Shown in pieces: positions 7,372 through 28,964 of a stretch of 64,000 nt of DNA. Positions within the stretch are counted from its first letter, which is position 1; each line of letters begins with the position of its first letter. Source of the DNA: Rhizobium sp. N324 (GTDB taxonomy: Bacteria > Pseudomonadota > Alphaproteobacteria > Rhizobiales > Rhizobiaceae); contig NZ_CP013630.1 of the NCBI RefSeq assembly GCF_001664485.1, forward strand, positions 3,599,001-3,663,000, written 5' to 3'. A program made the position numbers and the translations under genes. The notes under the pieces are model-generated. The model ran no database searches, was not told the origin of the DNA, and saw nothing but the letters and a program-made list of their open reading frames with translations.

Positions 7372-7983
<612 letters not shown>

Positions 7984-8072
7984 ATGCCTTACTCCAATCG
8001 AACCCGATGATAGCCGTGGCCGCTGTGCACGCCACCGTCAAATGACGCAGATGCTCGGATAATTTTGCGCCA

Positions 8073-8744: not shown

Positions 8745-8750
8745 CGAGCC

Positions 8751-9362: not shown

Positions 9363-9446
9363 GATATGTCCGTTTTGCTGAGGCGACCATGCAAAATAGC
9401 CTTTCCCGATGCAAGCACCAATGGCCTTTGTGCCCGCGTCGGGCTT

Positions 9447-10310: not shown

Positions 10311-10639
10311 GAGAATCGACCTTCCTGCCCGGCGTTTCAAGGCATTGATAGGAGCCCAATTGCTGCGGGTGTCTTAATCCACTCGTTAAAATTCGAACGG
10401 TTTTGGACCTTTCAGTGGACAGATTTTTTCTAGCAGGAGATGCAGCCCACCGATCCCTGAATCGGACAATGCGGAGAGCCACTTAAGGCATTGGTTTAAA
10501 ACAGCTTTATCGAGATACAGCACTGGGCTGTTTCAGAATGGTGTAACTGGGGAAAATATCGCTTTTCCACCGATTTTTACAACCGAATGGAGAGTGCCCA
10601 TCACGATTCAGTTTATGAACGGAGCGACCGGCGATTGGT
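10311..10639. other. Intergenic stretch inside the urease block
   Basis: About 330 bases between the GGDEF gene and the DUF2459 gene, with no convincing ORF on either strand. Base composition is AT-richer than in the genes (for example around 10380-10430 and 10490-10560), consistent with a promoter for the GGDEF-ureEFG segment. I see no strong terminator hairpin, so the urease transcript may run through. Confidence 0.4.
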
Positions 10640-11311
10640 TCAATTGTAGACACTCGCAGACAATCGCAATGATTGTGGAAGCGGGTTCCATAAGCCGGTC
10701 CGCAGCCCCGCCGAGCGGAGCGCCGCAGCCGTCCAGGTGTTGCAGCCGAAGAGGGCGTTGAAATATCCCTTGGCCTCGAAGAACCGGTCGATCTCGCCGT
10801 AACCGGCATCAGGGATCGGCGCCACAAGGCCGGCGTCACGAATGAAGCTGTCCGAGATAAAAATGCGCAGGCGCGCCAGTTGATCGTCGCTGACATCGAA
10901 TGCCGCAACGCTCGGCTGCGGCTCGGTGATATCCCGGGCAAGGTCGACGTGCAGCACCGAACGGTCGATCGTCAGCGCCCGCAGCACCGGCAGCGGCTTC
11001 AGCTCCGACCAGCTCGGGGTTTCCAGATAGAAGGCACGGCCGCCCCAGCCGACAATGAGCCATTCCGCATCTGGATGGCCGAGCGGAAAACCGGTCTCGG
11101 CGAGAAAGGAAAAGGCAGCCCGCGTCTCCTCGTCCAGTGGAATGGCGATATCGGTATGGATCGGTCCGGACAGCAGGAGAATCCGATGCGTCACCGCCGC
11201 AGACGACGCCTTGACCGGGGCAATCAGCGGCCGGGGAACCAGCGTCCCGCAGGCCGCCAGAAACACCAGCAGGAATACGGTCCGCAACAGCCAGCGGATG
11301 CCTGTTTTCAT
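10640..11311 (-). CDS. DUF2459/TIGR02117-like urease-region lipoprotein-like protein
   Basis: 223 residues from the ATG at 11311; in-frame GTG (11329) and ATG (11320) starts lie just upstream. The N-terminus is a membrane signal (WLLRTVFLLVFLAACG) with a lipobox-like LAAC, so the protein is probably a periplasm-facing lipoprotein. Recognisable family features are HTDIAIPLDEETR, WLIVGWGGRAFYLETPSW and GCNTWTAAALRSAG. Proteins of this family are often encoded beside urease genes, but their function is not known. It begins about 30 bases after ureC on the same strand and is probably cotranscribed. The GCNTW and GWGGRAFY segments are the best candidates for a catalytic site; that is inference. 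Confidence 0.8.
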   Translation of the reverse strand: MKTGIRWLLRTVFLLVFLAACGTLVPRPLIAPVKASSAAVTHRILLLSGPIHTDIAIPLDEETRAAFSFLAETGFPLGHPDAEWLIVGWGGRAFYLETPSWSELKPLPVLRALTIDRSVLHVDLARDITEPQPSVAAFDVSDDQLARLRIFISDSFIRDAGLVAPIPDAGYGEIDRFFEAKGYFNALFGCNTWTAAALRSAGLRTGLWNPLPQSLRLSASVYN

Positions 11312-11344
11312 CGGAGACATCCGTCGCACAGAGGGCCCTTTGGC

Positions 11345-13057
11345 CTAAAACAGGAAATAGCGCTGCGCCATCGGCAGCACCGTCGCCGGCTCGCATGTCA
11401 GCAACTCGCCGTTCGCCCTGACCTCGTAGGTCTCCGGATCGACTTCGATTTCCGGTGTCAGGTCGTTGTGGATCATCGACGCCTTGGAGATGCCGCCGCG
11501 GGTATTCTTCACCGCCACCAATTGCTTGGCGACCCCGAGCCGGCCCTTCAGGCCGGCATCGAGCGAGGCCTGGCTGACGAAGGTGACGGAGGAATTGGTG
11601 AGGCTTCGGCCGTAGGAGGCAAACATCGGCCGGTAATGCACCGGCTGCGGCGTCGGGATCGAGGCGTTCGGATCCCCCATCGGCGCGGCGGCGATCGAGC
11701 CGCCCAGCAGCACCATGTCGGGCTTCACGCCGAAGAAGGCCGGATTCCACAGCACAAGGTCGGCGCGCTTGCCGACTTCGACAGAGCCGATCTCGTGGCT
11801 GAGCCCATGGGCGATCGCCGGGTTGATCGTATATTTGGCGATATAGCGGCGGACGCGGAAATTGTCGTTGTCACCCTTTTCCTCCTTCAGCCGGCCGCGC
11901 TGGCGCTTCATCTTGTCGGCCGTCTGCCAGGTGCGGATCGCCACCTCGCCGACGCGGCCCATGGCCTGGCTGTCGGACGAGATGATCGAGAAGGCGCCGA
12001 TATCGTGCAATATGTCTTCGGCGGCGATCGTCTCCTTGCGGATGCGGCTTTCGGCGAAGGCGATATCCTCAGGGATCGACGGCGACAGGTGATGGCAGAC
12101 CATCAGCATGTCGAGATGCTCGGCAATGGTATTGACCGTATAGGGTCGCGTCGGATTGGTGGACGACGGAATGACGTTCGGCTGGCCGCAAATCTTGATG
12201 ATGTCGGGCGCGTGACCGCCGCCCGCCCCTTCCGTGTGAAAGGCATGGATGGTGCGGCCCTTGATGGCGCCGATCGTATCCTCGACGAAGCCGCTTTCAT
12301 TCAGCGTATCGGTGTGGATCATCACCTGCACGTCATATTCGTCGGCGACCGACAGGCAGCAGTCGATGGCGCCTGGAGTCGTGCCCCAGTCCTCGTGCAG
12401 CTTCAGCGAAGTGGCGCCGGCCAACACCATCTCGGTCAGCGCCCCCGGCAGCGAGGCATTGCCCTTGCCGGCAAAGGCGAGGTTCATCGGGAAGGCGTCG
12501 GCCGCTTCGATCATGCGCGCGAGATGCCAGGGCCCCGGCGTGCAGGTCGTGGCGAGCGTGCCGTGCGCCGGCCCGGTGCCGCCGCCGAGCATGCAGGTCA
12601 TGCCCGACATCAGCGCTTCCTCGATCTGCTGCGGCGCGATGAAGTGGATATGGCTGTCCATGCCGCCGGCAGTGACGATCTTGCCTTCGGCGGCGATCGC
12701 CTCCGTGCCCGGCCCGACGATGATATTCACACCGGGCTGCATATCGGGATTGCCCGCCTTGCCGATCGCGACGATGCGGCCGTCCTTAAGGCCAATATCG
12801 GCCTTGTAGATGCCGGAGTGATCGACGATCACCGCATTGGTGATGACGGTGTCGACAGCGCCGTCCGCCCGCGTCACCTGGCTCTGGCCCATGCCGTCCC
12901 GGATCACCTTGCCGCCGCCGAACTTCACCTCCTCGCCATAGGTGGTGAAATCCTTCTCGATCTCGATGAAGAGCTCCGTGTCGGCAAGGCGCACTTTGTC
13001 GCCGGTGGTCGGTCCGAACATGCCGGCATAGGCAGCGCGCGAGATCTTGTAGGGCAT
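11345..13057 (-). CDS. ureC: Urease catalytic subunit alpha (UreC)
   Basis: 570 residues, full length. It hydrolyses urea to ammonia and carbamate at a dinuclear nickel centre in the cytoplasm. Active-site residues are all present with the expected spacing: His136 and His138 (DSHIHF), the Lys carbamylated to bridge the nickels at 219 (TSLKLHEDW), His248, His274, the mobile-flap Cys321-His322-His323 (MVCHHLSPS) and Asp362 (SSDSQAMGR). The numbering is two above Klebsiella UreC throughout. The gene is separated from ureB by two accessory ORFs and a RIME palindrome, unlike the compact ureABC of enterobacteria. Confidence 0.98.
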
Positions 13058-13084
13058 CCATCAGGCTCCGTAGGAGGAAGAGAC

Positions 13085-13200
13085 TAGAGCATGATGCCGA
13101 AAAGTGTGAGCGGTTTTCGGACGACATCATGCTCTAACTCTTTATTTTAGAACAGGATTCAGATTTTAGGCCAACCGGGCCTAAAATCATCCTGTTCTAG
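13085..13200. repeat. RIME-type intergenic mosaic element (two palindromes)
   Basis: Two adjacent palindromes. The first runs 13085-13136, with arms TAGAGCATGATG and CATCATGCTCTA and an inner CCGAAAA/TTTTCGG pair. The second runs 13147-13200, with arms TTAGAACAGGAT and ATCCTGTTCTAG enclosing TTTTAGGCC/GGCCTAAAA. Size, two-palindrome layout and these arm sequences match what I know of the rhizobial RIME elements. It lies in the 5' leader of ureC, and the second palindrome overlaps the end of the upstream ORF. Confidence 0.85.
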
Positions 13201-13812
13201 CGTTTTTCCGCCGAGCCGCTTGAGGCGGCCCAGGGCAATATAACTATCGACAAGCTGCCGTTCGGCCGCAAACGGGTGCCACTCCCAGCCGACGTGACCG
13301 AAGCCGGCCAACATCACTTCGGCATCGGGAAATTTGCTCAGCACTTCGGCAATGACGATCATGCCGCTGCTCGGCACGACATAGAGCACCGGCGCAAAGA
13401 CCGAGAGCGACGCATCGACCGCCTCGTGGATCGATTTGTCGATGACCACATGCGTCTTGGCGGTCTCCGTGCAGAAGGCGCCAAATGCCTCCGTATAGTC
13501 GTCGCAGAAATCGTCGAGATCGGGGTGCGAGACGGCAAGCGGCGCCCGCATGGCGGCAAATTTGGCCGGGTCGCGCACGCTCCAGATTTCGCGGACCGAA
13601 ACGACGCCGGGATGGGTCCGCCACTCGCGCGAGCCAAGCATCGCCTTTGCCGGCCGGCCGGTATTGCAGACCGCGACGGCATCCGTCCGGCTGCCGCCGG
13701 TCCCAAAGGAACGGCAATCGTTGAAGCGGATGACGAAATCGGCGGCATCGATCACGCCTGCTTCCGCCTCTGCGACCTCGCCATTGCCGACGATTACGAT
13801 TTTCCTGATCAC
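13159..13812 (-). CDS. 'Urease operon accessory' protein with GT29/sialyltransferase-like motifs
   Basis: 217 residues, GTG start two bases after the preceding stop, so translation is probably coupled. Homologues in rhizobia are named only from their place in the urease operon. Reading the sequence, I see a Rossmann-like start (IVIVGNG, residues 5-11), then IDAADFVIRFND (21-32), GSRTDAV (40-46), PSSGM (147-151), GFG (170-172) and H179-x4-E184. These match in order the L, S and VS sialylmotifs of glycosyltransferase family 29. Activity is not shown and the urease link is only genomic. Residues 205-217 are encoded by the RIME palindrome, so the native protein ends near residue 204. Confidence 0.75.
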   Translation of the reverse strand: MIRKIVIVGNGEVAEAEAGVIDAADFVIRFNDCRSFGTGGSRTDAVAVCNTGRPAKAMLGSREWRTHPGVVSVREIWSVRDPAKFAAMRAPLAVSHPDLDDFCDDYTEAFGAFCTETAKTHVVIDKSIHEAVDASLSVFAPVLYVVPSSGMIVIAEVLSKFPDAEVMLAGFGHVGWEWHPFAAERQLVDSYIALGRLKRLGGKTLEQDDFRPGWPKI

Positions 13813-13813
13813 T

Positions 13814-14221
13814 TTAGTTGCTCATCGTGTCTTCGAGCTCTTTCAGCTCTTTCGTGCGTTTGTCGGTGATGTTGGCGAGGCACCCGGCGACCAGCATCGG
13901 CTCCATCGTGCCGCCGCGGGCCTGGAAACCGAAGGCGTCGCACTCGGCGTCCCGATAATCGATCCAGGCGCGCTGCGCCTTGACCAGCGCCTGCTCCGCA
14001 CCCTTCATGTCGCCGTCGAGATCCTTGTCGACCGCCGCCAAGGCGGCGCGGGTCTTCTTATATTGCACATTCAAAGCCTTGTCGGCGGTCTCGTGGCGCG
14101 CCGCCTCGCAAGAGGTCATATCCGATTGCGTCTGGGGATTTTGGCAATCGATAGCCTCAGCGGAAGCGCTATCAGCCATCAGCAGCATCGCCGCCCCGAT
14201 GAGGCAGATATTCAAACGCAT
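13814..14221 (-). CDS. LprI-like (DUF1311) periplasmic protein
   Basis: 135 residues with a Sec signal (MRLNICLIGAAMLLMADSASA). The mature part has four cysteines in the pattern of the LprI domain (IDCQNPQTQSDMTSCEAARH and later YRDAECDAF and VAGCLAN) and the helical LVKAQRAWIDYRDAEC signature. LprI-domain proteins include lysozyme inhibitors; a role in urease is not known. The gene lies between ureB and the GT29-like gene, the latter starting one base after its stop. Confidence 0.85.
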   Translation of the reverse strand: MRLNICLIGAAMLLMADSASAEAIDCQNPQTQSDMTSCEAARHETADKALNVQYKKTRAALAAVDKDLDGDMKGAEQALVKAQRAWIDYRDAECDAFGFQARGGTMEPMLVAGCLANITDKRTKELKELEDTMSN

Positions 14222-14233
14222 GCATCCCTCCCG

Positions 14234-14539
14234 TTAGAGCTTGCCCATCACCAGCTGACGGAAGCCATAGACCTCGCGCTTGCCGGAAAGCGGGATCAGC
14301 GTCACCGAGCGCGTCTGTCCCGGCTCGAAGCGCACCGCCGTTCCCGCCGGAATATCCAGTCGTTTGCCATGCGCCGCCGCCCGATCGAAGGACAGCCCGG
14401 CATTGGTCTCGGCGAAATGATAGTGGCTGCCGACCTGCACCGGCCGGTCGCCGGTATTGGAAACCTCCAGCGTCACCGTCGGCGCGCCGGCATTCAGTTC
14501 GATGTCGCCGCTTGCGGCAATGATCTCACCCGGAATCAT
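14234..14539 (-). CDS. ureB: Urease subunit beta (UreB)
   Basis: 101 residues, the normal length of a separate bacterial beta subunit. It forms the structural lobe against UreA and UreC in the (alpha-beta-gamma)3 enzyme. It opens [16 protein letters not shown] and contains [18 protein letters not shown] and [15 protein letters not shown], all diagnostic. AAGGAG stands well before the ATG. In this cluster ureB is separated from ureA by a DUF1272 gene. Confidence 0.97.
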
Positions 14540-14548
14540 CTTATCTCC

Positions 14549-14800
14549 TTAAGCCGCCCTGGGCGCGCAGCCCTCGGCCTTCAGCACACGCTTCGTCGAC
14601 GCCGGATGTTTGGCAAGCATCGCCGCCGGCCGGATGGGTCTGGCAACAAGATTGCCGCCGCAATTCGGGCAGACGCCCTTGAGCACGCCATCGACGCAAT
14701 CGGCGCAGAAGGTGCATTCATAGGTGCAGATCCGTGCCGCCGCGCTCTCCGGCGGCAAATCCTTGTCGCAGCATTCGCAATTCGGCCTGAGCTCAAGCAT
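14549..14800 (-). CDS. DUF1272 small Cys-rich (zinc-ribbon-like) protein
   Basis: 83 residues from the ATG at 14800, preceded by AAGGAG; the longer open frame upstream runs into ureA. Eight cysteines are arranged in CxxC pairs (CECCDKDLPP, CTYECTFCADC, CPNCGG), which suggests one or two zinc sites. Function of the family is unknown. Its place between ureA and ureB, with 9-10 base spacing on each side, implies cotranscription with urease. The fold might serve in metal handling, but this is speculation from the cysteine pattern. Confidence 0.88.
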   Translation of the reverse strand: MLELRPNCECCDKDLPPESAAARICTYECTFCADCVDGVLKGVCPNCGGNLVARPIRPAAMLAKHPASTKRVLKAEGCAPRAA

Positions 14801-14810
14801 ATCGGTCTCC

Positions 14811-15113
14811 TTACCGGATCGGTTCGTGCACGGTGACGAGCTTGGTTCCATCCGGGAACGTCGCCTCCACCTGCACGTCGTGGATCATCTCGGCAACGCC
14901 TTCCATCACCTGGTCGCGGCCGATGACATGGGCGCCGGCCTCCATCAGCTCGGCGACCGGACGGCCGTCGCGGGCGCCTTCGACGACGAAGTCGCTGATC
15001 AGCGCGATCGCCTCGGGATAGTTGAGCTTGACGCCGCGCTCCAGCCGCCGCCGCGCCACCATCGCCGCCATCGATATCAGCAGCTTGTCTTTTTCTCTCG
15101 GAGTGAGGTTCAT
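14811..15113 (-). CDS. ureA: Urease subunit gamma (UreA)
   Basis: 100 residues, the standard length. It starts [20 protein letters not shown] and contains [33 protein letters not shown] and the C-terminal [11 protein letters not shown], all conserved in UreA. It packs on UreC as the smallest structural subunit. It starts 20 bases after ureD and is followed by the DUF1272 gene after 10 bases. Confidence 0.98.
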
Positions 15114-15133
15114 TATCTACCTGCTTATTGAAC

Positions 15134-15955
15134 TCATAGATTCCAGACTTTCGGCACAGGCGCACCATTGCGCAAGGCGGAAATGACCGGGATCAGGATT
15201 TTTCTGAGCGAGAAGCCGTCGGCTGCCGCGAGGCGGACGACGAGCTTGCCGTCCCAGGCGCTCGCACCGCCCATCGCGCCCTCGACGAGCGGCCGCACCT
15301 TGCCGAGATAGGCTTCCGACAGCAGCCCGGCATAAAGCAGCGTCGCAAAAGCCACCTGCCCGCCGAGCACCGCCTGACGTGCTGCGAGCGCCGCCACCCC
15401 TTCGGAAAGCCTCAGCTCTTCGGCATGGATCAGTTGGCCCGAGCGGCGGATGCGCCAGCGGTCGCGGAAAAGCCCGGTCTCAACCGTCTCGCCCATCGCC
15501 TTGCGGCCGAGCAGTATGGCTTCGACGGCCAGGAATTCGGCGCTCTCGTCAAGATCGACATCCAGCCGGCGAAAAAGCGCGGCTCGATCGAAGAGGATCG
15601 TTTCCTGCGGCAACCAGTCGACGCGGGCTTGCCCTCCGACCTTGATGCTGGTCGTCACCTCGGCGGTGCCGGCCGATGCCTTGTAGATCTTCTCGCAGGC
15701 CTGGGTGGTGACGTCGATCTTGGTGCCGGCGCCGGCCGCGATGCTCCAGTCCATTCGATCGCCGCCGGTCAGCCCGCCTGCCGTGTTGATGATGACGGCT
15801 TCCATCGAGGCATCGAACGTATCGGGCAGACGGATCTTCGCCGCTCCCTCCTGATAGAGCTCACGCAGACGCGTGCGGCCATCGAGCAGCTTTGCCGCCA
15901 GATGCCCGCGTCCTTCCGCTCTTTGCGGTCTCGTGCCTGCCGCGGCAATCACCAT
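15134..15955 (-). CDS. ureD: Urease accessory protein UreD
   Basis: 273 residues from the ATG at 15955, which has GAAAGG seven bases upstream; the longer open frame begins with a TTG and adds 21 unlikely residues. UreD (UreH) is a beta-helical scaffold that binds apo-urease first and recruits UreF and UreG. Hallmarks are [26 protein letters not shown] and [14 protein letters not shown]. It opens the urease segment directly after urtE on the same strand. Confidence 0.95.
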
Positions 15956-16106
15956 ATCGTGCCTTTCGGTCGCGCCACCGGTTTTCCATTCAATCGTGCG
16001 GGTAACGAAAGCAAGCAATTCCCATGCCGTCCGAGGATAGCCGCAGGGGGAGCAGGCAGATTTGAAAAACGCTCCGCCGTCTGCCGAAAATTACGGCATT
16101 TGCCGG

Positions 16107-16802
16107 TCATACGGTCAGATGACGGCGGGCCTCGGGCGTATCCAGCGTCTCGGCAAGGCCTTCATGGACGATTTCGCCGCGATCCATGATGTAGACGTAA
16201 TCGGCAAGCTCCCGGCAGAAATCGAGATATTGTTCGACGAGCAGGATCGCCATGCCGGTGGAATCGCGGAGATAACGGATCGCCCGGCCGATATCCTTGA
16301 TGATCGATGGCTGAATGCCTTCGGTCGGCTCGTCGAGCACGAGAATCCTCGGCCGCGTCACCATGGCGCGGCCGATCGCCAGCTGTTGCTGCTGGCCGCC
16401 GGAAAGATCGCCGCCGCGGCGCGACAGCATCGACTTCAGCACCGGGAAGAGGCTGAAGATATCGTCGGGTATGTTGCGGTCGCGGCGGCCGAGCGGAGCA
16501 AAGCCGGTTTCGAGATTTTCCTTGACCGTCAGCAGCGGGAAAATTTCCCGCCCCTGTGGCACATAACCGATGCCCTGCTTGGCGCGGGCAAACGGCGGCA
16601 GGCCGTTCAGCCTTGTGTCGTTGAACGTGACGGTGCCGGCCGACAGCGGATGCTGGCCGGTCACGGCGCGCAGGAGCGAACTCTTGCCGACGCCGTTGCG
16701 CCCCAGCACGCAGGTGATCTTGCCCATCTCCGCCCTGATGGAGATGCCGCGCAGCGCCTGCGCCGCGCCATAATGCAGATTTGCGTTTTCGACTGTCAGC
16801 AT
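16107..16802 (-). CDS. urtE: Urea ABC transporter ATP-binding protein UrtE
   Basis: 231 residues from MLTVENANLHYGAAQ; an ATG 12 bases upstream is possible. A LivF-like ATPase with Walker A GRNGVGKSS, Q-loop followed by YVPQGREIFPLLTVKENLETG, signature LSGGQQQQ and Walker B ILVLDEPTEGIQPS. The wording YGAAQALRGIS near the start and EGIQPSII are typical of UrtE rather than LivF. It is the last urea-transport gene before ureD. Confidence 0.93.
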   Translation of the reverse strand: MLTVENANLHYGAAQALRGISIRAEMGKITCVLGRNGVGKSSLLRAVTGQHPLSAGTVTFNDTRLNGLPPFARAKQGIGYVPQGREIFPLLTVKENLETGFAPLGRRDRNIPDDIFSLFPVLKSMLSRRGGDLSGGQQQQLAIGRAMVTRPRILVLDEPTEGIQPSIIKDIGRAIRYLRDSTGMAILLVEQYLDFCRELADYVYIMDRGEIVHEGLAETLDTPEARRHLTV

Positions 16803-16820
16803 CCGTTCACCCATTCCCCA

Positions 16821-17339: not shown

Positions 17340-17415
17340 GATGAAACCCCACAATAAAACCCGCCCGTTTTAAAGCGTGTTCTATTGTCAGGTTCAAGCC
17401 TGTAAGTTGCATGGA

Positions 17416-18180
17416 TCACCGCCCCAGATAGTTCTCGATCACCTTCGGATCGGAACTGACGAAATCGATCGATCCCTCAGCCAGCACCGAGCCTTCTGCA
17501 AGGCATGTCACCTTGACGCCGAGGTCGCGGATGAAGCCCATGTCGTGCTCGACGACGACCACGGAGCGGGTCCTGGCGATGTCCTTGAGCAGGATCGCGG
17601 TTTCCGCGGTTTCCGCATCGGTCATCCCGGCCACCGGTTCGTCGACCAGCAGCAGCTTCGGCTCCTGCGCCAGCAGCATGCCGATTTCCAGCCATTGTTT
17701 CTGCCCATGCGACAGGTTGGCGGCAAATTCGTCACGGCGGTGCGTCAGCCGCACCGTATCGAGGATCTCATCGATGCGTGCCTTGTCCTCACCTGACAGC
17801 CGATAGAACAGCGTCGAGAACACGCCGCGACGGCGGTTCAGCGCCAGTTCCAGATTGTCCCACACCGTATGGCTTTCGAAGACCGTCGGCTTCTGGAATT
17901 TGCGGCCGATCCCGAGCTGGGCGATATCGGCCTCGTCCTTCTTGGTGAGATCGACAGTGCCGTTGAAGAACACTTCGCCCTCATCGGGCCTGGTCTTGCC
18001 GGTGATGATATCCATCATCGTCGTCTTGCCGGCGCCGTTCGGGCCGATAATGGCGCGAAGCTCCCCGGGTTCGATGACGATCGACAGCGAATTCAATGCC
18101 TTGAAGCCATCGAAGGAAACCGAAACGCCGTTGAGATAAAGCACGCTGTTGGGTTTGACGTCGGGAATCACTGTGCTCAC
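17416..18180 (-). CDS. urtD: Urea ABC transporter ATP-binding protein UrtD
   Basis: 254 residues with a GTG start that overlaps the urtC stop (GTGA). A LivG-like ATPase: Walker A GPNGAGKTTM, MDIITGKTRPDEGEVFFNG, signature LSHGQKQWLEIGMLL (the SHGQ variant seen in UrtD), Walker B LLLVDEPVAGMTDAE, and His switch VVVVEHDMGFIRDLG. The ITGKTRPDEG and SHGQKQWLEIGM segments separate it from amino-acid LivG proteins. Confidence 0.94.
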   Translation of the reverse strand: MSTVIPDVKPNSVLYLNGVSVSFDGFKALNSLSIVIEPGELRAIIGPNGAGKTTMMDIITGKTRPDEGEVFFNGTVDLTKKDEADIAQLGIGRKFQKPTVFESHTVWDNLELALNRRRGVFSTLFYRLSGEDKARIDEILDTVRLTHRRDEFAANLSHGQKQWLEIGMLLAQEPKLLLVDEPVAGMTDAETAETAILLKDIARTRSVVVVEHDMGFIRDLGVKVTCLAEGSVLAEGSIDFVSSDPKVIENYLGR

Positions 18181-19340
18181 TCCGCTGCCTGGATTTTCGG
18201 CTCGATGCCGTCTTCCTGCGCCGCCGGCGGCATCACAGGGGAAGCGGTTTTCCGTTTGCCGAGATAGGGGGCGATCGTGCCGACCACGCCCTTCGGCAGA
18301 AATAGCGTGACGGCGACGAAGAGACCGCCGAGCGCAAACAGCCAGAACTCCGGGAAGAGACCGGTGAAGATCGTCTTGCCGCCATTGACGAGGATCGCGC
18401 CGATGATCGGCCCGATCAGCGTCGCCCGCCCGCCGACCGCCGTCCAGATGACGACTTCGATCGAGTTGGCAGGAGCGAATTCGCCGGGGTTGATGATGCC
18501 GACCTGCGGAACGTAGAGCGCACCCGCAATGCCCGCCATCATCGCCGAGACGACGAAGGTGAAGAGCTTGAAATGTTCGACGCGGTAACCGAGGAAGCGC
18601 GTGCGGCTTTCCGCATCGCGCACGCCGACCAGCACCTTGCCGAATTTCGAACGAACGATCCCCGAGGCCAGCAGCAGCGACAGCGCCAGCATGACCGCGG
18701 TTGCGGCAAATAGGGCTGCACGCGTGCCGTCAGCCTGAACGTTGAAGCCGATAATGTCCTTGAAATCGGTCAGGCCGTTATTGCCGCCGAAGCCCATATC
18801 GTTACGGAAGAAGGCGAGCAGCAGCGCGTAGGTCATCGCCTGGGTGATGATCGAGAGATAGACGCCGTTGACGCGTGAGCGGAAGGCGAACCAGCCGAAG
18901 ACAAAGGCGAGTAGGCCGGGCACGACGAGCACCATTAGCGCCGCAAACCAGAAGTGGTTGAAGCCGTACCAGAACCAGGGCAGATCCTTCCAGTTCAGGA
19001 ACACCATGAAATCGGGCAGGATTGGGTCGCCGTAGCTGCCGCGGGTGCCGATCTGGCGCATCAGATACATGCCCATCGCATACCCGCCCAGCGCAAAGAA
19101 GGCGCCGTGGCCGAGCGAGAGAATGCCGCAGAAGCCCCAGACGAGATCGAGCGCCAGCGCCAGCAGCGCATAGGTCAGATACTTGCCGAACAGTGACATG
19201 ACATAGGTCGGCACGTGCAGCGGATTGGTCGGCCCGGTCATCAGGTTCAGCACCGGTACGAGAACGGCGACCAGAAGCAGCAGGGCGATGGCAATGACGA
19301 TCTTGCGATCTACTGATCGGAGAAGGAAGGCCGTTATCAT
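18177..19340 (-). CDS. urtC: Urea ABC transporter permease UrtC
   Basis: 387 residues from the ATG at 19340, which overlaps the urtB stop by 4 bases. A LivM-like permease with about ten hydrophobic segments, the family motif LDLVWGFCGILSLGHGAFFALGGYAMGMY (here spanning a helix), then FRSRVNGVYLSIITQAMTYA and GGRATLIGPIIGAILVN. The in-frame open region continues far upstream but there it only shadows urtB. Confidence 0.94.
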   Translation of the reverse strand: MITAFLLRSVDRKIVIAIALLLLVAVLVPVLNLMTGPTNPLHVPTYVMSLFGKYLTYALLALALDLVWGFCGILSLGHGAFFALGGYAMGMYLMRQIGTRGSYGDPILPDFMVFLNWKDLPWFWYGFNHFWFAALMVLVVPGLLAFVFGWFAFRSRVNGVYLSIITQAMTYALLLAFFRNDMGFGGNNGLTDFKDIIGFNVQADGTRAALFAATAVMLALSLLLASGIVRSKFGKVLVGVRDAESRTRFLGYRVEHFKLFTFVVSAMMAGIAGALYVPQVGIINPGEFAPANSIEVVIWTAVGGRATLIGPIIGAILVNGGKTIFTGLFPEFWLFALGGLFVAVTLFLPKGVVGTIAPYLGKRKTASPVMPPAAQEDGIEPKIQAAE

Positions 19341-20989
19341 GCTTCCACTGCCCTTCCTTTGAGCGCGAAGAGCCCGCGCGGACGCTTCTGGATGAAGAGA
19401 ATGATGAGGACCAGCACCAGGATCTTGCCGAGCACGGCGCCGGCGAAGGGCTCGAGGAACTTGTTGACGACGCCGAGCGAGAGCGCGCCGACCAGCGTGC
19501 CCCAGAGGTTGCCGACACCGCCGAAGACGACGACCATGAAGCTGTCGATGATGTAGGATTGACCGAGATTCGGCGAAACATTGTCGATCTGGCTGAGCGC
19601 CACGCCGGCAATACCGGCAATGCCCGAACCGAGCGCGAAGGTGAAGGCGTCGACCCAGCCGGTGCGGATGCCCATCGACGATGCCATGCGGCGGTTCTGC
19701 GTGACGGCGCGCATCTGCAGGCCGAAGGCTGAGCGCTTGAGCAGCAGGAGCAGCGTCACGAACACAACCATCGAAAAGACGATGATCCATAGCCGGTTCC
19801 AGGTGATGGAGAGCCCGCCGAGATCGAAGACGCCGGACATCCAGGTCGGATTGCGGACCTCGCGGTTGGTCGGCCCGAAGATGCTGCGCACGGCCTGCTG
19901 CAGGACCAGCGACACGCCCCAGGTGGCGAGCAGCGTTTCGAGCGGCCGGCCGTAGAGATAGCGGATGACGGCGCGCTCGATGACGAGGCCGACAAAGCCG
20001 GTGAAGACGAAGGCGGCCGGCACCGCAAAGGCCAGCGAATAATCGGCAAGCGCGGGATAGGACGAGGTAATCGTTTCCTGCACCACATAGGTCGTATAGG
20101 CGCCGATCATCACCATTTCGCCATGCGCCATGTTGATGACGCCCATGACGCCGAAGGTGATAGCAAGGCCGATCGCCGCCAGCAGCAGCACCGAGCCGAG
20201 CGACAATCCGTACCAGACGTTCTGGACGATATCCCACAGCGCCAGGCTGCGATTGATGGTGCTGATACCTGCCTGGATCGCCGGCTTCAGGTCATCAGGC
20301 GCGGTTTCGAGTGTGGTCGTCAGAATGGTCAGCGCATCACGATTGCCGCGAGCCGCAATCGTATCGATCGCAGCCTTCTTGTCTTCGACGCTCGCATCCG
20401 TCTTCAGCAGCAGCACGGCGCGCGCCGCTTCCATCGTATTTTTGATCTCGGCGTCCTTTTCAGCCGCAAGCGCCGCGTTCAGCAGGTCGAGATTGGCGGG
20501 ATCGGCATCCTTCAGCAGGCCTTGTGCCGCGGCAAGCCGCGCCGAACGATCCGGGCTCATCAGCGTCAGCTGGCTGGTGGCGGCGCTGATGACGCCGCGA
20601 AGTGAATTGTTGATCTTGACCTTGCTCATCATGTCAGGATCGACATCGGCGGCCGCTTCACCGCTGATCGGATCGGAATAGGTCGGTTCGTCATCGGTGC
20701 CGCCCTGGAGGAGCACCGGGCCGCCATCGGAATTGACGTAGAGAAGGCCGTCGCTCAACTGCTGCAGGATCTGGCTGACATGCGGATCCTTGGAGGCGAC
20801 CAGCGCCTTGATGGCCGCCTCGCGTTCCGGGAAGTCGCCGACGCCGAGCGCATCGATGAGCAGGTGGATATCGCCCTCTGCCCGAACTTCGCTCGATATT
20901 GCCGAGCCCGGAAATGCGAGGCCGGAAAATGTCAGGCCCGAGAACGTCAGGCAAAGCGTGAGAAGGAAAATCTTGATGGCGCGATACAT
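19337..20989 (-). CDS. urtB: Urea ABC transporter permease UrtB with periplasmic N-terminal domain
   Basis: 550 residues. A signal-like N-terminus (MYRAIKIFLLTLCLTFSGL) is followed by about 220 mostly helical, presumably periplasmic residues (HEAT-like pattern of DPANLDLLNAALAAEKD, ASVEDKKAAIDTIAARGNRD), then a LivH-type permease of about 300 residues (SLGSVLLLAAIGLAITFGVMGVINMAHGEMVMIGAYT spans two helices). This long extension is usual in proteobacterial UrtB. The signal contains a small in-frame duplication, FSGLTFSGLAFPG. It overlaps urtC by 4 bases. Confidence 0.94.
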   Translation of the reverse strand: MYRAIKIFLLTLCLTFSGLTFSGLAFPGSAISSEVRAEGDIHLLIDALGVGDFPEREAAIKALVASKDPHVSQILQQLSDGLLYVNSDGGPVLLQGGTDDEPTYSDPISGEAAADVDPDMMSKVKINNSLRGVISAATSQLTLMSPDRSARLAAAQGLLKDADPANLDLLNAALAAEKDAEIKNTMEAARAVLLLKTDASVEDKKAAIDTIAARGNRDALTILTTTLETAPDDLKPAIQAGISTINRSLALWDIVQNVWYGLSLGSVLLLAAIGLAITFGVMGVINMAHGEMVMIGAYTTYVVQETITSSYPALADYSLAFAVPAAFVFTGFVGLVIERAVIRYLYGRPLETLLATWGVSLVLQQAVRSIFGPTNREVRNPTWMSGVFDLGGLSITWNRLWIIVFSMVVFVTLLLLLKRSAFGLQMRAVTQNRRMASSMGIRTGWVDAFTFALGSGIAGIAGVALSQIDNVSPNLGQSYIIDSFMVVVFGGVGNLWGTLVGALSLGVVNKFLEPFAGAVLGKILVLVLIILFIQKRPRGLFALKGRAVEA

Positions 20990-21104: not shown

Positions 21105-22397
21105 TCAGGAACCCTTGCCGCCGCACTTGCCAGTGGCAACGTTGAAGTTGCCGCAGGACATCGGCTTACGCCAATCGGAGATCAGGTCCTTGGAATCAGG
21201 CAGGTAATCGGACCATTCGTCGCCGACGACGGCGGGCGTCTGCTGGACGATTTCGAACTGGCCGTTGGCCTGGATTTCACCGATCAGCACGGGCTTGGTG
21301 ATGTGGTGGTTCGGCATGACGGTCGCATAGCCGCCGGAGAGATTTGGAACGCTGACGCCGATGATGGAGTCGAGAACCTTGTCGGTATCGGTCGTGCCGG
21401 CGGCCTGGACGGCCTTAACCCATGCGTTGAAGCCGATATATGCAGCTTCCATCGGGTCGTTCGTCACGCGCTTGTCGTTCTTGGTGTAAGCATGCCAGTC
21501 CTTGATGAACTTCTTGTTGGCCGGGCTTTCCACGGACTCGAAATAGTTCCAGGCAGCGAGATGGCCGACGAGCGGCTTGGTGTCGAGACCGGCAAGTTCT
21601 TCTTCACCGACCGAGAAGGCGACGACGGGAATGTCGGTTGCCTTGATGCCCTTGTTGCCCAGTTCCTTGTAGAACGGAACGTTGGCGTCGCCGTTGATCG
21701 TCGAGACGACGGCGGTCTTCTTGCCGGCCGAACCAAATTCCTTGATCTTGGCAACTTCGGTCTGCCAGTCGGAGAAGCCGAACGGCGTGTAGTTGGTCAT
21801 GATGTCTTCTTTCGGAATACCCTTCGAAATCAGGTATGCCTCGAGAATCTTGTTGGTCGTGCGCGGATAGACGTAGTCGGTCCCTTCGAGCACGAAGCGC
21901 TTGACGCCTTCCTTTTCCATCAGGTAGTCGACCGCCGGAATGGCCTGCTGGTTCGGCGCAGCCCCGGTGTAGAAGATGTTGCGCGAGGATTCTTCGCCCT
22001 CATACTGCACGGGGTAGAAGAGCAGCGAATTCAGCTCTTCGAAAACCGGCAGAACGGACTTGCGCGACGAGGACGTCCAGCAGCCGAAGACCGCAGCAAC
22101 CTTGTCCTTCTGGATCAGCTCGCGGGCCTTTTCCGCAAACAGCGGCCAGTCGGAGGCCGGATCGACGACGACGGCCTCGAGCTTCTTGCCGAGAAGGCCG
22201 CCCTTCTTGTTCTGCTCGTCGATGAGCATCAGCATGGCGTCTTTCAGCGTGGTTTCGGAAATCGCCATCGTGCCGGAAAGCGAATGCAATACGCCGACTT
22301 TGATCGTGTCGTCGGCGGCAACCGCGCCCTGGAAGGCGGCCGATGCCGCCATGACGGCACCGAGCGCAGCGCCGGTGATCGTGGATCTGAGATTCAT
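21105..22397 (-). CDS. urtA: Urea ABC transporter substrate-binding protein UrtA
   Basis: 430 residues from the ATG at 22397 (MNLRSTITGAALGAVMAAS); the open frame continues upstream without signal-peptide character. After a Sec signal cleaved near AVAADD, the mature protein starts IKVGVLHSLSGTMAISETTL, the defining UrtA motif, and contains GCWTSSSRKSVLPVFEE and LLFYPVQYEGEESS, both typical of UrtA/FmdD proteins and absent from LivJ. It is the first gene of the urt-ure block, 115 bases ahead of urtB. The 188-base region upstream should hold the main promoter. Confidence 0.95.
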   Translation of the reverse strand: MNLRSTITGAALGAVMAASAAFQGAVAADDTIKVGVLHSLSGTMAISETTLKDAMLMLIDEQNKKGGLLGKKLEAVVVDPASDWPLFAEKARELIQKDKVAAVFGCWTSSSRKSVLPVFEELNSLLFYPVQYEGEESSRNIFYTGAAPNQQAIPAVDYLMEKEGVKRFVLEGTDYVYPRTTNKILEAYLISKGIPKEDIMTNYTPFGFSDWQTEVAKIKEFGSAGKKTAVVSTINGDANVPFYKELGNKGIKATDIPVVAFSVGEEELAGLDTKPLVGHLAAWNYFESVESPANKKFIKDWHAYTKNDKRVTNDPMEAAYIGFNAWVKAVQAAGTTDTDKVLDSIIGVSVPNLSGGYATVMPNHHITKPVLIGEIQANGQFEIVQQTPAVVGDEWSDYLPDSKDLISDWRKPMSCGNFNVATGKCGGKGS

Positions 22398-22540
22398 CTG
22401 GTTGAGCCCCTCTTCTTGTTCCGCAACAGGCCGGAAACGGAATTTAACTGTTGCCGAGGGGACTATCGGGTGCTGCATCGCAAAAACACATACGCAAAAT
22501 GACGTAGGCGCAGGGGGCAAACGGACATACGGAAAGCAAC

Positions 22541-24667: not shown

Positions 24668-27600
24668 ATGGCAGCGCGCCAACGCATCATTCCGGTGAGA
24701 CGCGAATATAATCGCTGGGTCGCCAACCAGACGCTGGAAGATTATGCGCTGCGCTTTACCGCAAAGAGCGCCCGCCATTTCTCCTCGCAGCGCATCGCCC
24801 AGACAGCGATCGGCGCCATCTCCTTCCTGGCGCTCGAGGCGATCGGCGGCGCCATCACCCTCTCCTACGGCACCACCAATGCCTTTTATGCTATTATCGT
24901 CGCTTCGATCGCTATGCTGGCGATCGGCCTGCCGATCAGCCGCTACGCCATCCGCCACGGCGTCGACATCGATCTTCTGACCCGCGGCGCCGGCTTCGGC
25001 TATATCGGCTCGACCATCACCTCGCTGATCTATGCGAGCTTCACCTTCATGCTGTTTGCGATCGAGGCCTCGATCATGTCCGGGGCGCTGGAGCTTACCC
25101 TCGGTATTCCGCTCTGGATCGGCTACATCCTCAGCGCCGTCATGGTGATCCCGCTGGTGACGCACGGCGTGCGGCTGATCAGCAAATTCCAGCTGATGAC
25201 CCAACCCTTCTGGATCGTGCTGAACATCCTGCCCTTCATTTTCATCGCCTTCATGGATTGGGAAAAGTTCGATCTCTGGCGCGCCTTTGCCGGCATTCGC
25301 CATGCCTCGGGCCCGCCCGGCACCATCGCCGAATTCGATCTGGTGCAGTTCGGCGCCGCCTCCGCCGTTATCCTGGCGCTGATGTCGCAGATCGGCGAGC
25401 AGGCAGACTTCCTGCGCTTCCTGCCGCCCGACCCGCAGCGCAAATGGCGCCATCGCCTCGCCGTCTTTCTCGCCGGGCCCGGCTGGGTCATTATCGGCGC
25501 GCCGAAACTGCTGGCCGGTTCCTTCCTCGTCGTGCTGACCCTCGCCTCGGGCGTGCCACTCGATCGGGCCGCCGATCCGGCGCAGATGTATCTGACCGCT
25601 TTCGGCTATATGGTGCCCTGGCAGAATGCCGCACTACTGTTGATGGCCGCCTTCGTCGTCGTCTCGCAGCTGAAGATCAACGTGATGAATGCCTATGCCG
25701 GCTCACTCGCCTGGTCGAACTTTTTCTCGCGGCTGACCCACAGCCATCCCGGCCGCGTGATCTGGCTGGTCTTCAACGTCGCGATCGCCCTGCTTTTGAT
25801 GGAACTCGGCATCTACCGGCTGCTGGAGGAGACGCTCGGCATCTTCTCGATCATCGCCATGGCCTGGCTCTGCACGATCTCCGCCGATCTCTTCATCAAC
25901 AAGCCGCTTGGCCTCGCTCCGCCCGGCATCGAGTTCAAACGCGCCCATCTCTACGACATCAATCCGGTCGGCCTCGGCGCCATGACGCTGTCGGCGACGG
26001 TATCGCTGATTGCCCATTTCGGCGCCTTTGGCGCAACCGCCGCCTCGCTGGCGCCCTATATCACCCTCGTCATCGCGCTGATCGCCTCGCCGGCACTTGC
26101 CTGGGCGACGAAGGGCAAGTTCTACCTCGCCCGCAAGCCGCGCCACAGCTGGAAGAACCTGACGAGCATCACCTGCTCCATCTGCGAGCATCCCTTCGAG
26201 CCGGAGGATATGGCCTGGTGCCCGGCCTATGCCGCACCGATCTGCTCGCTCTGCTGCTCGCTCGACAGCCGCTGCCACGACATGTGCAAGCCGGCCGCCC
26301 GTTTCAACGCGCAGGTCGGCACCGTCGCCAAGGTGCTGTTGCCGGAAACCGTTCTGGGCAAGCTGACGACGCGCCTCGGCCGCTACGGCATCGCCGTCGC
26401 GTTGGCCTTAACCGCGATCGGCGCGATCCTGGCGATGATCGCCCATCAGGTCGCCGCCGCCTCACCCGAAACGGCCGAGGTCGTCAACCGCACCATCCTC
26501 ATCGTCTTCTTCGTCTTCTCGGTGATTTCAGGCGTCGTCTGCTGGTTCTATGTGCTCGCTCATGACAGCCGCGTCGTCGCCGAGGAGGAATCCTCGCGCC
26601 AGAACACTCTGCTGCTCAAGGAGATCGCCGCCCACAAGAAGACCGACACCGCCTTGCAGAATGCCAAGGAAACGGCCGAGGCAGCCAACCGCGCCAAAAG
26701 CCGCTACGTCGTCGGCCTCAGCCACGAGTTGCGCACGCCATTGAATGCCGTGCTCGGCTACGCCCAGATCCTCGAGCGCGACGACACCATCCCGGCGCCG
26801 CGCCAATCCTCGATCAAGGTCATCCGCCGCAGCGCCGAGCACCTCTCCGGGCTGATCGACGGCCTACTCGATATTTCCAAGATCGAGGCCGGCCGCCTGC
26901 AGGTCTATTCCAATGAGATCAACATCCAGGATTTCCTCGACCAGATCGTCGACATGTTCCGCCCGCAGGCGCAGGCGAAGGGCGTTGCTTTCCTGCACCA
27001 GCGCGCGCCGGCCTTGCCGCAATTCGTCCGCACCGACGAAAAGCGGCTACGCCAGATCCTCGTCAACCTGCTCTCCAATGCCATCAAGTTCACCGACGAG
27101 GGCAGCGTCACCTTCGATGTCGCCTATCGCAGCCAGGTTGCGACCTTCACCGTCACCGATACCGGCCGCGGCATCGCTGAAAAGGATCTGACGCGTATCT
27201 ACGAACCCTTCCAGCGCGGCGAGGCCGAAAGCGTGCGGCCAATGCCGGGCCTCGGCCTCGGCCTCACCATCACCCGGCTTCTGACCAACACGCTTGGCGG
27301 CGAGATTGCGGTTTCGAGCGTCAAGGACGAGGGATCGACCTTCCGCGTCCGCCTCATGCTGTCCGCCGTCATGCGCGCCGTGGCCGCAGCGCCGCAGGAA
27401 AAGCGCATCGTCGGATACGACGGCCCGCGCCGCACGGTGGTCGTCGTCGACGATAACGAAGACCATCGCGAGATGATGCGCGAAATCCTGGCGCCTCTCG
27501 ATTTCATCGTTCTGACGGCAGCAGGCGGCGGCGAATGCCTGACGCTGATCGAGGGCATCATGCCGGATCTTTTCCTTGTCGATATCCTGATGCCCGGCAT

Positions 27601-28054
27601 GAGCGGCTGGCAGCTGGTCTCGCGCCTGCGCGAGGCCGGCCAGACGGCGCCGATGCTGATGCTTTCGGCCAATATCGGCGATGCCGCCGTTCTGGGCGAC
27701 AGCGACGACAGCCACAATGATGCGATCGGCAAGCCGGTCGACATCCGCCAGCTGCGCGACAAGCTGGCTTTGCATCTTGGCCTGAAATGGGTCTATGCCG
27801 ACGCCGCGCCGGCTACTCCAGTGAAGACCGAAGCGCCGACGCTGAGCCCGGGTGCTGCCCATGTGCAGGAATTGCTGCGGCTCGGCGAGATCGGTTATAT
27901 CAGAGGCATCGAAGCCAAGCTTTCGGACCTTGCCAAGGTGGAGGCAAATCAGCCATTCACCGATGAACTTCGCGCCTATGTCGCCGCCTTCGATCTCGCC
28001 GGCTTCATGACCTTCCTGCACGACTTCGACGAAAAGGTGGAATCCATTGGCTGA
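24668..28054 (+). CDS. Hybrid histidine kinase fused to an NCS1-like nucleobase transporter
   Basis: 1128 residues from the ATG at 24668, preceded by GGAAGGAAG. Residues about 1-480 form 12 hydrophobic segments resembling purine/cytosine permeases (AIGAISFLALEAIGGAITLS, DIDLLTRGAGFGYIGSTITS). A Cys-rich segment with eight cysteines (503-540) comes next, then two more membrane helices (about 570-640), a coiled coil, a HisKA domain with phospho-acceptor His686 (SHELRTPLN), an ATPase domain (N-box Asn804; DTGRGIAEKD; GLGLGLTI), a receiver with phospho-acceptor Asp972 (LVDILMPG), and a 70-residue helical tail. The response regulator gene overlaps its 3' end. It likely senses a nucleobase or related nitrogen compound, by transport or binding; the ligand is unknown. 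Confidence 0.9.
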   Translation: MAARQRIIPVRREYNRWVANQTLEDYALRFTAKSARHFSSQRIAQTAIGAISFLALEAIGGAITLSYGTTNAFYAIIVASIAMLAIGLPISRYAIRHGVDIDLLTRGAGFGYIGSTITSLIYASFTFMLFAIEASIMSGALELTLGIPLWIGYILSAVMVIPLVTHGVRLISKFQLMTQPFWIVLNILPFIFIAFMDWEKFDLWRAFAGIRHASGPPGTIAEFDLVQFGAASAVILALMSQIGEQADFLRFLPPDPQRKWRHRLAVFLAGPGWVIIGAPKLLAGSFLVVLTLASGVPLDRAADPAQMYLTAFGYMVPWQNAALLLMAAFVVVSQLKINVMNAYAGSLAWSNFFSRLTHSHPGRVIWLVFNVAIALLLMELGIYRLLEETLGIFSIIAMAWLCTISADLFINKPLGLAPPGIEFKRAHLYDINPVGLGAMTLSATVSLIAHFGAFGATAASLAPYITLVIALIASPALAWATKGKFYLARKPRHSWKNLTSITCSICEHPFEPEDMAWCPAYAAPICSLCCSLDSRCHDMCKPAARFNAQVGTVAKVLLPETVLGKLTTRLGRYGIAVALALTAIGAILAMIAHQVAAASPETAEVVNRTILIVFFVFSVISGVVCWFYVLAHDSRVVAEEESSRQNTLLLKEIAAHKKTDTALQNAKETAEAANRAKSRYVVGLSHELRTPLNAVLGYAQILERDDTIPAPRQSSIKVIRRSAEHLSGLIDGLLDISKIEAGRLQVYSNEINIQDFLDQIVDMFRPQAQAKGVAFLHQRAPALPQFVRTDEKRLRQILVNLLSNAIKFTDEGSVTFDVAYRSQVATFTVTDTGRGIAEKDLTRIYEPFQRGEAESVRPMPGLGLGLTITRLLTNTLGGEIAVSSVKDEGSTFRVRLMLSAVMRAVAAAPQEKRIVGYDGPRRTVVVVDDNEDHREMMREILAPLDFIVLTAAGGGECLTLIEGIMPDLFLVDILMPGMSGWQLVSRLREAGQTAPMLMLSANIGDAAVLGDSDDSHNDAIGKPVDIRQLRDKLALHLGLKWVYADAAPATPVKTEAPTLSPGAAHVQELLRLGEIGYIRGIEAKLSDLAKVEANQPFTDELRAYVAAFDLAGFMTFLHDFDEKVESIG

Positions 28055-28964
28055 GCCGGCCCTCCCCCGCGACATCGTTCTGCTCGTCGACGACTCGCCC
28101 GAAGCGCTGGGCTTCCTGACCGACGCGCTCGAACAATCCGGCTTCTCCGTGCTGATCGCCACATCGGGCACTGCGGCCCTTGGCATCGTCGAGCGCATCA
28201 CGCCCGATCTGATCCTGCTCGACGCCGTCATGCCCGCCATGGATGGTTTCGAGACCTGCCGCAGGCTGAAGGCGAATGCGGCGGTGGCGCAGGTGCCTGT
28301 CATCTTCATGACCGGCCTGACCGAAACCGAGCATGTCGTGCACGCGCTGGAATCCGGCGGAGTGGACTATCTCGCCAAGCCAATTAATATCGACGAATTG
28401 CGCGCCCGCATCCGTGTGCACCTGCGCAACGCCCGCTCGGCGCAGAGCGCCCGGGTCGCACTCGACGCCGCCGGCCGCCATCTGCTGGCAGTGAAAGGCG
28501 ATGGCGCCATCCACTGGTCGACGCCGCAGGCGACGCGACTGGTCAATGCCGCCATGGGCAGCGATGACGGCATGGAAATCGTCGTCCGCCATATCGCGAC
28601 CTGGATGCGCGACCGCGCAGCCGCCGTGCGCGACGGCATCATTTCGATCGCCCATGCTGGCCAGGCGGCACTGCAGCTCGCCTTTCTCGGCGCGATCGGC
28701 CCCGACGAATATCTCTTCCGTCTCACGGCCGCCAATCAGCGCAGCGACGACGAGATGCTGCGCCAGCGCTTTTCGCTGACCCAGCGCGAATCCGAGGTGC
28801 TGCTCTGGATCGCCAAGGGCAAGGCCAACCGCGACATCGGCGAAATACTCGGACTGTCGGCGCGCACCGTGAACAAGCACCTCGAACAGATCTACGTGAA
28901 GCTCGGCGTCGAGAACCGGGCCTCGGCCGCCGTGAAGGCGACGCATGTGCTGCACGAGATGTAG
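28047..28964 (+). CDS. LuxR-type response regulator, partner of the transporter-kinase
   Basis: 305 residues from a TTG start overlapping the kinase stop by 8 bases, with AAGGTGG suitably placed. An N-terminal receiver has acidic pocket VDDSPEA, phospho-acceptor in LILLDAVMPAMDG, Thr in FMTGLTE and Lys in YLAKPIN. A linker of about 100 residues precedes a C-terminal LuxR/GerE HTH (LTQRESEVLLWIAKGKANRDIGEIL over two helices, then LSARTVNKHLEQIYVKLGVENR). The overlap makes it the obvious phosphorylation target of the upstream hybrid kinase. Targets are unknown; the nearby urt-ure genes are candidates by position only. Confidence 0.92.
   Translation: MAEPALPRDIVLLVDDSPEALGFLTDALEQSGFSVLIATSGTAALGIVERITPDLILLDAVMPAMDGFETCRRLKANAAVAQVPVIFMTGLTETEHVVHALESGGVDYLAKPINIDELRARIRVHLRNARSAQSARVALDAAGRHLLAVKGDGAIHWSTPQATRLVNAAMGSDDGMEIVVRHIATWMRDRAAAVRDGIISIAHAGQAALQLAFLGAIGPDEYLFRLTAANQRSDDEMLRQRFSLTQRESEVLLWIAKGKANRDIGEILGLSARTVNKHLEQIYVKLGVENRASAAVKATHVLHEM

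Follow-up and report, generated by a model that had tools for sequence, protein, structure and literature searches.

Sensory fold, gene neighbourhood and candidate operator of an NCS1-type hybrid histidine kinase, a putative receptor for urea and short-chain amides in Rhizobium sp. N324

What does a histidine kinase sense when its sensory half has the fold of a transporter, and which genes would it control? We consider this question for a kinase gene and the response regulator gene that overlaps it, which lie near the urea genes in a 64,000-nucleotide stretch of Rhizobium sp. N324 (contig NZ_CP013630.1, positions 3,599,001 to 3,663,000, forward strand). This whole stretch is called the window, and its coordinates are used throughout. 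The kinase and the regulator probably form a two-component switch for the use of urea and short-chain amides. More tentatively, as a possibility rather than the expected outcome, we propose that an NCS1 carrier became a receptor dedicated to urea and short-chain amides, which probably no longer transports and has a zinc-binding, RING-like coupling module instead of STAC; that kinase, LuxR partner and operator have been inherited as a unit in the alpha- and other Pseudomonadota; and that this unit is the missing regulator of formamide- and urea-inducible fmd operons.

The kinase, its partner and its binding pocket

The features of the pair are as follows.

24668..28054, + strand: gene of the NCS1-type hybrid histidine kinase, 1128 amino acids
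24725..26137, + strand: NCS1 (CodB/Mhp1-like, LeuT-fold) sensory domain, residues 20-490, 12 helices
26174..26287, + strand: eight-cysteine module, residues 503-540 (C503, C506, C518, C526, C529, C530, C536, C540)
26387..26548, + strand: two extra transmembrane helices leading from the cysteine module to the kinase, residues 574-592 and 609-627 (hydropathy and models)
26696..26893, + strand: HisKA dimerisation/phosphoacceptor domain, residues 677-742, with H686 (Pfam)
27032..27361, + strand: HATPase_c catalytic domain, residues 789-898 (Pfam)
27437..27766, + strand: C-terminal receiver (Response_reg), residues 924-1033, with D928, D929, D972 and K1022 (Pfam)
28047..28964, + strand: LuxR/NarL-type response regulator, REC and GerE (Pfam), overlapping the kinase gene by 8 bases

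Judged by its sequence, the protein is a hybrid sensor histidine kinase, with the histidine of HisKA, the HATPase_c domain and the aspartate of the receiver all in place, and its partner is, on the same grounds, the LuxR/NarL response regulator. Among 148 aligned kinases (the window's kinase included) the phosphoacceptor H686 is present in all, and the receiver aspartate D972 is kept in 146, the remaining two being gaps. Residues 1-560 are 97% identical to a Rhizobium fabae protein, and the genome itself (G000) holds one NCS1-type kinase.

Residues 20-490 have the 12-helix LeuT fold, with CodB and Mhp1 the closest. Compared with 20 standalone permease-family proteins, hhalign gives a probability of 100% (E 9.5e-40), while the window kinase taken as a single sequence gives no match to PF02133. 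A preliminary description of the window had read the kinase as a 12-helix NCS1-like permease joined to a hybrid kinase with a terminal receiver, followed by an overlapping LuxR regulator, and all three parts of that reading hold.

Does the domain still have the binding site of a nucleobase carrier? As described for CodB (PMC9379551), cytosine is sandwiched by Trp108 and Phe204 and receives hydrogen bonds from Gln105, Ser203 and Ala207, and the sodium ligands are Gly29, Phe32, Asn275, Thr278 and Thr279. When CodB is mapped onto the kinase, with gapless alignment in transmembrane helices (TM) 1, 3 and 6, Phe33 corresponds to F53, Gln105 to T126, Trp108 to residue 129 and Phe204 to L238. Residue 129 is Leu in 79 and Phe in 69 of the 148 kinases, residue 238 is Leu in every one, and both base-stacking aromatics are, as far as the CodB alignment holds, missing from all of them. 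T126, F125, E244, Q245, K336, N338 and N341 are invariant in the same set, and F53 and E57 deviate by one gap each. Because residues 129 and 238 have changed and the other pocket residues are invariant, we take the nucleobase sandwich to be lost and the pocket nonetheless to be fixed. That F53, T126, L238, K336, N338 and N341 are fixed (147-148 of 148) in kinases beside urea genes and beside amide genes is expected of a shared small ligand.

K336 takes the place of CodB Thr278 if TM8 is aligned gaplessly from Tyr285, and the standalone relatives have Arg there. If this alignment is right, a lysine replacing a sodium-ligating threonine argues against sodium coupling, not against transport. Kinases and standalone permeases have D247-x-x-R250-F251, Q334, N338, N341 and Y343 in common. 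The nearest free transporter found is a standalone 'purine-cytosine permease family' protein (L179, 949-2442) beside a carbon-nitrogen hydrolase gene; its family too has Arg at the CodB sodium-ligating Thr, given a gapless TM8 alignment.

The linker consists of the cysteine module and two long hydrophobic helices; STAC is compared with it by description, not by sequence. In the predicted model the module is a hairpin-helix (predicted local distance difference test score, pLDDT, 88). It is cytoplasmic if the usual NCS1 topology applies, it probably binds zinc, and we describe it tentatively as RING/treble-clef-like: its matches to RING, PHD and LIM families are insignificant (E 1.3 or worse), as is the match to Prok-RING_1 in 4 of 81 (best E 0.083), and the linker region of the window kinase matches no Pfam family at the cut-off. 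Four urease-linked kinases (L135, L149, L162, L165) are longer than usual; in L135, L162 and L165 the match is interrupted between residues 490 and 502, and their sequences suggest an insert directly N-terminal to the module.

Gene neighbourhood in other genomes

We turn to the question of which genes accompany the kinase elsewhere. The class sample holds 240 evenly sampled genomes and the phylum sample 398 Pseudomonadota genomes, with three genomes in common; the named loci are the best 80 of at least 593, and are not an even sample. The stretches examined are the window and otherwise about 20 kb per locus (less at contig ends). The markers, searched with tblastn, are the window genes and, taken from the loci, a formamidase (PF03069, E 5e-184), a CN_hydrolase protein resembling aliphatic amidases and a zinc-ribbon protein resembling FmdB; we take the names AmiE, AmiB and FmdB to apply here, on the strength of sequence and Pfam matches. 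A locus has a urea context if it holds a urea-type urtA or ureC, and an amide context if it holds a second urt-like ATP-binding cassette (ABC) operon, fmdA or amiE. The non-redundant set comprises 102 kinases at less than 90% identity.

A match is found in 14 of 240 genomes of the class sample and in 54 of 398 of the phylum sample. Two of the latter (G399, G600) match by a standalone permease only, and the other 52 carry the kinase, at 57 loci. In the set of relatives (n = 61) all 37 genomes of the same genus have it. Urea or amide genes adjoin 55 of the 57 kinase loci of the phylum sample, the other two (L148, L188) reaching contig ends, and 11 of the 14 loci of the class sample. Among the non-redundant kinases the figure is 97 of 102 (57 urea, 40 amide); neither context is found for L091, L100, L128, L132 and L148, and the contigs of L100 and L148 are about 5 kb long. 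The link to urt and ure thus extends far past this genome, and the outcome that the preliminary description had held against itself, a fusion whose neighbours in every other genome are unrelated genes, is not what the phylum sample shows.

The association can also be read from the side of the formamidase. The 398 genomes contain 42 canonical full-length FmdA genes (at least 555 bits), and for 38 of these such a kinase is encoded no more than 15 kb away. The four exceptions are two in G337 (on another contig), an additional copy in G419 and a gene in G340, a genome in which no kinase was found. The recurrent neighbours are genes for the urea ABC transporter, urease, formamidase and aliphatic amidase; no nucleobase-catabolism genes were seen among the neighbour families recurring in at least 4 of 79 clustered loci, rarer neighbours being unannotated. 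Neighbour clusters 8, 11 and 21 were dropped, as we read them as antisense shadows of real genes.

A tree of the 102 kinases, made by a quick method and with several long branches, has eight changes of the urea label, at least six of them forced by well-supported branches. These changes suggest that the same type of receptor has passed between operons for urea and operons for amides while keeping its core pocket, which fits ligands with a common amide group. Residue 129 (window 25052-25054) follows the context in part: all 40 kinases with an amide context have Phe there, 45 of the 57 with a urea context have Leu, and Leu also occurs in L131 and L158, both outside the Rhizobiaceae clade. With Leu in only 45 of the 57, we rejected it as a switch between urea and amides; it is a trend and no rule.

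The palindrome before urtA

The next question is where the regulator might bind. A candidate lies before urtA.

22491..22506, no strand: putative operator TACGCAAAATGACGTA (palindrome family ATACG-N8-CGTA); the likely urtA start lies about 93 bp downstream

The pattern TACG-N8-CGTA occurs in 47 of 58 non-redundant divergent intergenic stretches, where about one is expected (resampling with the same dinucleotide frequencies). In a wider set of 86 non-redundant divergent loci, drawn from 127, it lies within the urtA-proximal 300 bp at 62 (34 of 48 urea-type, 28 of 38 amide-type), and the reversed pattern, used as a control, does so at 2 of 86. The spacing of 8 is specific, the 20 other spacings between 0 and 20 giving 0 or 1. 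There are 64 sites in 22.8 kb of urtA-proximal sequence against 26 in the remaining 1.73 Mb of the loci. The base 5' of TACG is A in 62 of 62, which gives ATACG-N8-CGTA, and the common form is ATACGTC-N4-GACGTA.

The site remains next to urtA in loci whose kinase gene is 2 to 8 kb distant (L058, L072, L116), and it also precedes urtA in L151 and L159, whose urt genes are on the far side of the regulator gene. In G398 and G572 it stands directly before fmdA, and in L128, L129 and L188 it precedes the kinase gene itself (the L188 contig ends just past the site). Rhizobium leguminosarum/johnstonii 3841 (L101) has the kinase-regulator pair too, with a perfect palindrome upstream of urtA. The half-site may covary with the regulator: residue 276 is Asn in 59 of 66 regulators with a TC half-site and Asp in 13 of 20 with CA and no TC, in a count that does not control for relatedness.

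Across 43 kinase-bearing genomes there are 18 distinct perfect palindromes: 12 at urt, fmd or kinase promoters, two more within 12 kb of a kinase and four elsewhere; the reversed control gives 10. In the window's own genome the sole TACGTC-N4-GACGTA with at most one mismatch is a perfect one at C1:2331938-2331953 (L197, 7939). It lies near genes that resemble transglutaminases by eye, recurs with the same sequence in a close relative (G274), and is probably a chance occurrence.

Some loci depart from the common plan. L166 (9358-12015) and L168 have a divergent NCS1-kinase of about 890 residues without a receiver; in L166 a REC-HisKA-HATPase protein (8205-9455) follows the kinase and replaces the LuxR regulator, and the same holds for L168, the domains having been checked in L166. 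A canonical fmdA (68-70% to the query) lies about 3 kb off, and TACG-N8-CGTA was not found at either locus. The palindrome, where found, keeps to the urtA side of the gap between urtA and the kinase gene, with or without the intervening PAP2 gene described below.

The proposed switch, its alternatives and the surrounding genes

Combining the fold, the pocket, the neighbourhood and the palindrome, we propose the following switch. A former NCS1 permease with a remodelled binding pocket would serve as receptor for a small amide-type ligand, presumably urea here and formamide, acetamide or urea in relatives, bound between the TM1/TM6 bundle and the TM3/TM8 hash. The conformational change that the ligand induces would reach H686 of the kinase by way of the eight-cysteine module and the two extra helices, and phosphate would go from H686 to D59 of the LuxR-type regulator, either in a relay through D972 or in one step. 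A dimer of the phosphorylated regulator may then bind ATACG-N8-CGTA upstream of urtA (elsewhere, upstream of fmdA or of the kinase gene) and turn on, rather than repress, the genes for uptake and breakdown. The fmd genes of Methylophilus are reported to be inducible by both formamide and urea (PMC10781810), which a urea/amide receptor would fit.

Several observations weigh against this proposal. Gene neighbours identify the regulated pathway, not the ligand. The profile match to the single E. coli CodB is weak (probability 5.8%), and TM8, unlike TM1, TM3 and TM6, received gaps from MAFFT. The kinase-regulator pair stands without urea or amide genes nearby in L128, L129 and L132 of the class sample, and L091, a full-length stretch, has neither. 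The window site TACGCAAAATGACGTA has two mismatches to the full palindrome, and 0.84 such matches are expected by chance per 64 kb; its significance comes via its relatives, not within the window alone, and an operator call from the window alone, at about one chance match per 64 kb, was rejected as insignificant. TACG-N8-CGTA was not found in the stretches of L135, L149, L162 and L165, which have urease and no urt; of L137, L140 and L158, which have ure and part of urt with urtA outside; or of L112, L132, L148, L166 and L168. In the wider set 24 of 86 loci have no perfect urtA-proximal site within 300 bp (several have one or two mismatches to the full palindrome), and a perfect full palindrome occurs in just 14 of the 43 kinase-bearing genomes.

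The alternative that survives best is a true transceptor, in which the NCS1 domain carries urea, amides or a related compound and signals through its transport cycle, as CbrA does with histidine. The motifs retained from standalone permeases speak for it, and CbrA is reported to take up histidine (PMC13022988). On the other side, an Urt-type ABC importer is already encoded beside the pair at most loci, and the Ks-Amt5 fusion is described as binding its ion without moving it (PMC5764959). We regard a transceptor as unlikely, if a serious contender.

A kinase that reads the state of the Urt-type ABC transporter, or the general nitrogen supply, with the NCS1 domain mainly a membrane scaffold, seems less likely still. 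The same frequent company of an Urt-kind operon would suit it, as would the 2-8.8-fold rise of urt and ure genes under N2 fixation reported for Azoarcus, a response to nitrogen supply (PMC8467165). However, L135, L149, L162, L165 and L112 have urease or amiE and no urt in the stretch, and NCS1 binding-site residues fixed in 147-148 of 148 relatives go beyond the needs of a scaffold.

Could the cysteine module be the main sensor, of metal or redox state, and the NCS1 domain provide a further input? All eight cysteines are retained in 148 of 148 kinases, and urease requires nickel. But a structural zinc module accounts for this conservation equally well, and no single metal fits, because the module is just as invariant in kinases next to formamidase or amidase genes as in those next to genes for urease (nickel); we think this improbable.

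The sensor of purines, pyrimidines, allantoin or hydantoin that the preliminary description had favoured is very improbable: fold and closest standalone relatives do go by the name 'purine-cytosine permease family', but the two CodB stacking aromatics are gone in every aligned relative, nearly all non-redundant kinases sit beside urea or amide genes, and NCS1 folds can take ringless substrates, as MetT carries metformin (PMC13390362). From the position next to urt and ure that description had drawn a nitrogen-source sensor, and in this respect urea, which it also named, remains a candidate.

The proposed urea/amide switch can be compared with known systems. CrbS/CrbR, for acetate use, likewise has a transporter-fold domain on a hybrid kinase, a LuxR-family partner and a palindromic promoter motif (PMC5715377, PMC9100948); it has SLC5, STAC and acetate genes where we find NCS1, the eight-cysteine module with two helices, and urea/amide genes. 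CbrA/CbrB also joins transporter domain and kinase on one chain, but CbrA is described as SLC5-STAC-PAS with histidine as ligand and no receiver named (PMC13022988). In Ks-Amt5, too, a transporter for a nitrogen compound has come to act as the sensory portion of a kinase, with the Amt fold, ammonium and an anammox bacterium as the differences (PMC5764959). Residues 20-490 share the fold of CodB, Mhp1 and the standalone purine-cytosine permease-family proteins; the domain here differs in lacking the stacking aromatics of the nucleobase site, in being fused to the cysteine module and kinase domains and, if TM8 is gapless, in having K336 at the CodB sodium-ligating Thr. A figure legend on urtABCDE operon III of Ectopseudomonas guguanensis G3 (PMC13296017, 2026) has histidine kinase and LuxR genes in the same arrangement; the likeness is one of gene order, and the kinase appears there as an annotation, its fold, ligand, family and operator not being described in the text available.

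Since CrbS/CrbR shares its plan, and CbrA and Ks-Amt5 are further fusions of transporter and kinase, we count the family as an addition to the known transporter-fold sensor kinases; fold, linker module, regulatory target and predicted operator are new among them. A review on the diversity of kinases refers to the Amt fusion, and its searched text has no matches for permease, urea, nucleobase or symporter (PMC8534201); in the open-licence literature searched we found neither an account of an NCS1 domain fused to a histidine kinase nor one of a kinase that senses urea or amides. NCS1 would join SLC5 as the second LeuT-type transporter family recruited as a kinase receptor, and the kinase family described here suggests a linker module of another kind than STAC. 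Urea and formamide are both useful sources of nitrogen; the part of PMC10781810 available names no sensor for them. The kinase family, which occurs in 52 of the 398 Pseudomonadota genomes sampled, supplies a testable candidate for the sensor, its partner and its operator.

The surrounding genes of the window are as follows.

22586-24490, - strand: PAP2-domain gene with PATR (autotransporter passenger) repeat, separating urtA from the kinase gene
21105..22397, - strand: urtA, urea ABC transporter binding protein (TIGR03407, E 1e-167); start inferred at 22397, the listed open reading frame running to 22520
19337..20989, - strand: urtB (TIGR03409, E 2e-130)
18177..19340, - strand: urtC (TIGR03408, E 3e-135)
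17416..18180, - strand: urtD (TIGR03411, E 2e-115)
16107..16814, - strand: urtE (TIGR03410, E 2e-100)
7372..16018, - strand: urease cluster, with other genes interspersed
15134-16018, - strand: ureD (sequence and place)
14811-15113, - strand: ureA (NCBIfam)
14234-14539, - strand: ureB (NCBIfam)
11345-13057, - strand: ureC (NCBIfam)
8751-9362, - strand: ureE (NCBIfam)
8073-8744, - strand: ureF (sequence and place)
7372-7983, - strand: ureG (NCBIfam)

The frames at 15134-16018 and 8073-8744 have no NCBIfam match at E 1e-10, and we take them to be ureD and ureF by sequence and position. The open frame between urtD and urtE (16821-17354) has no Pfam match. The PAP2 gene also intervenes in some other Rhizobium, and elsewhere the gap between urtA and the kinase gene is only about 100-200 bp. 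Within the urease cluster, between ureE and ureC, lies a diguanylate cyclase gene (9447-10340, - strand; GGDEF, E 2.5e-31).

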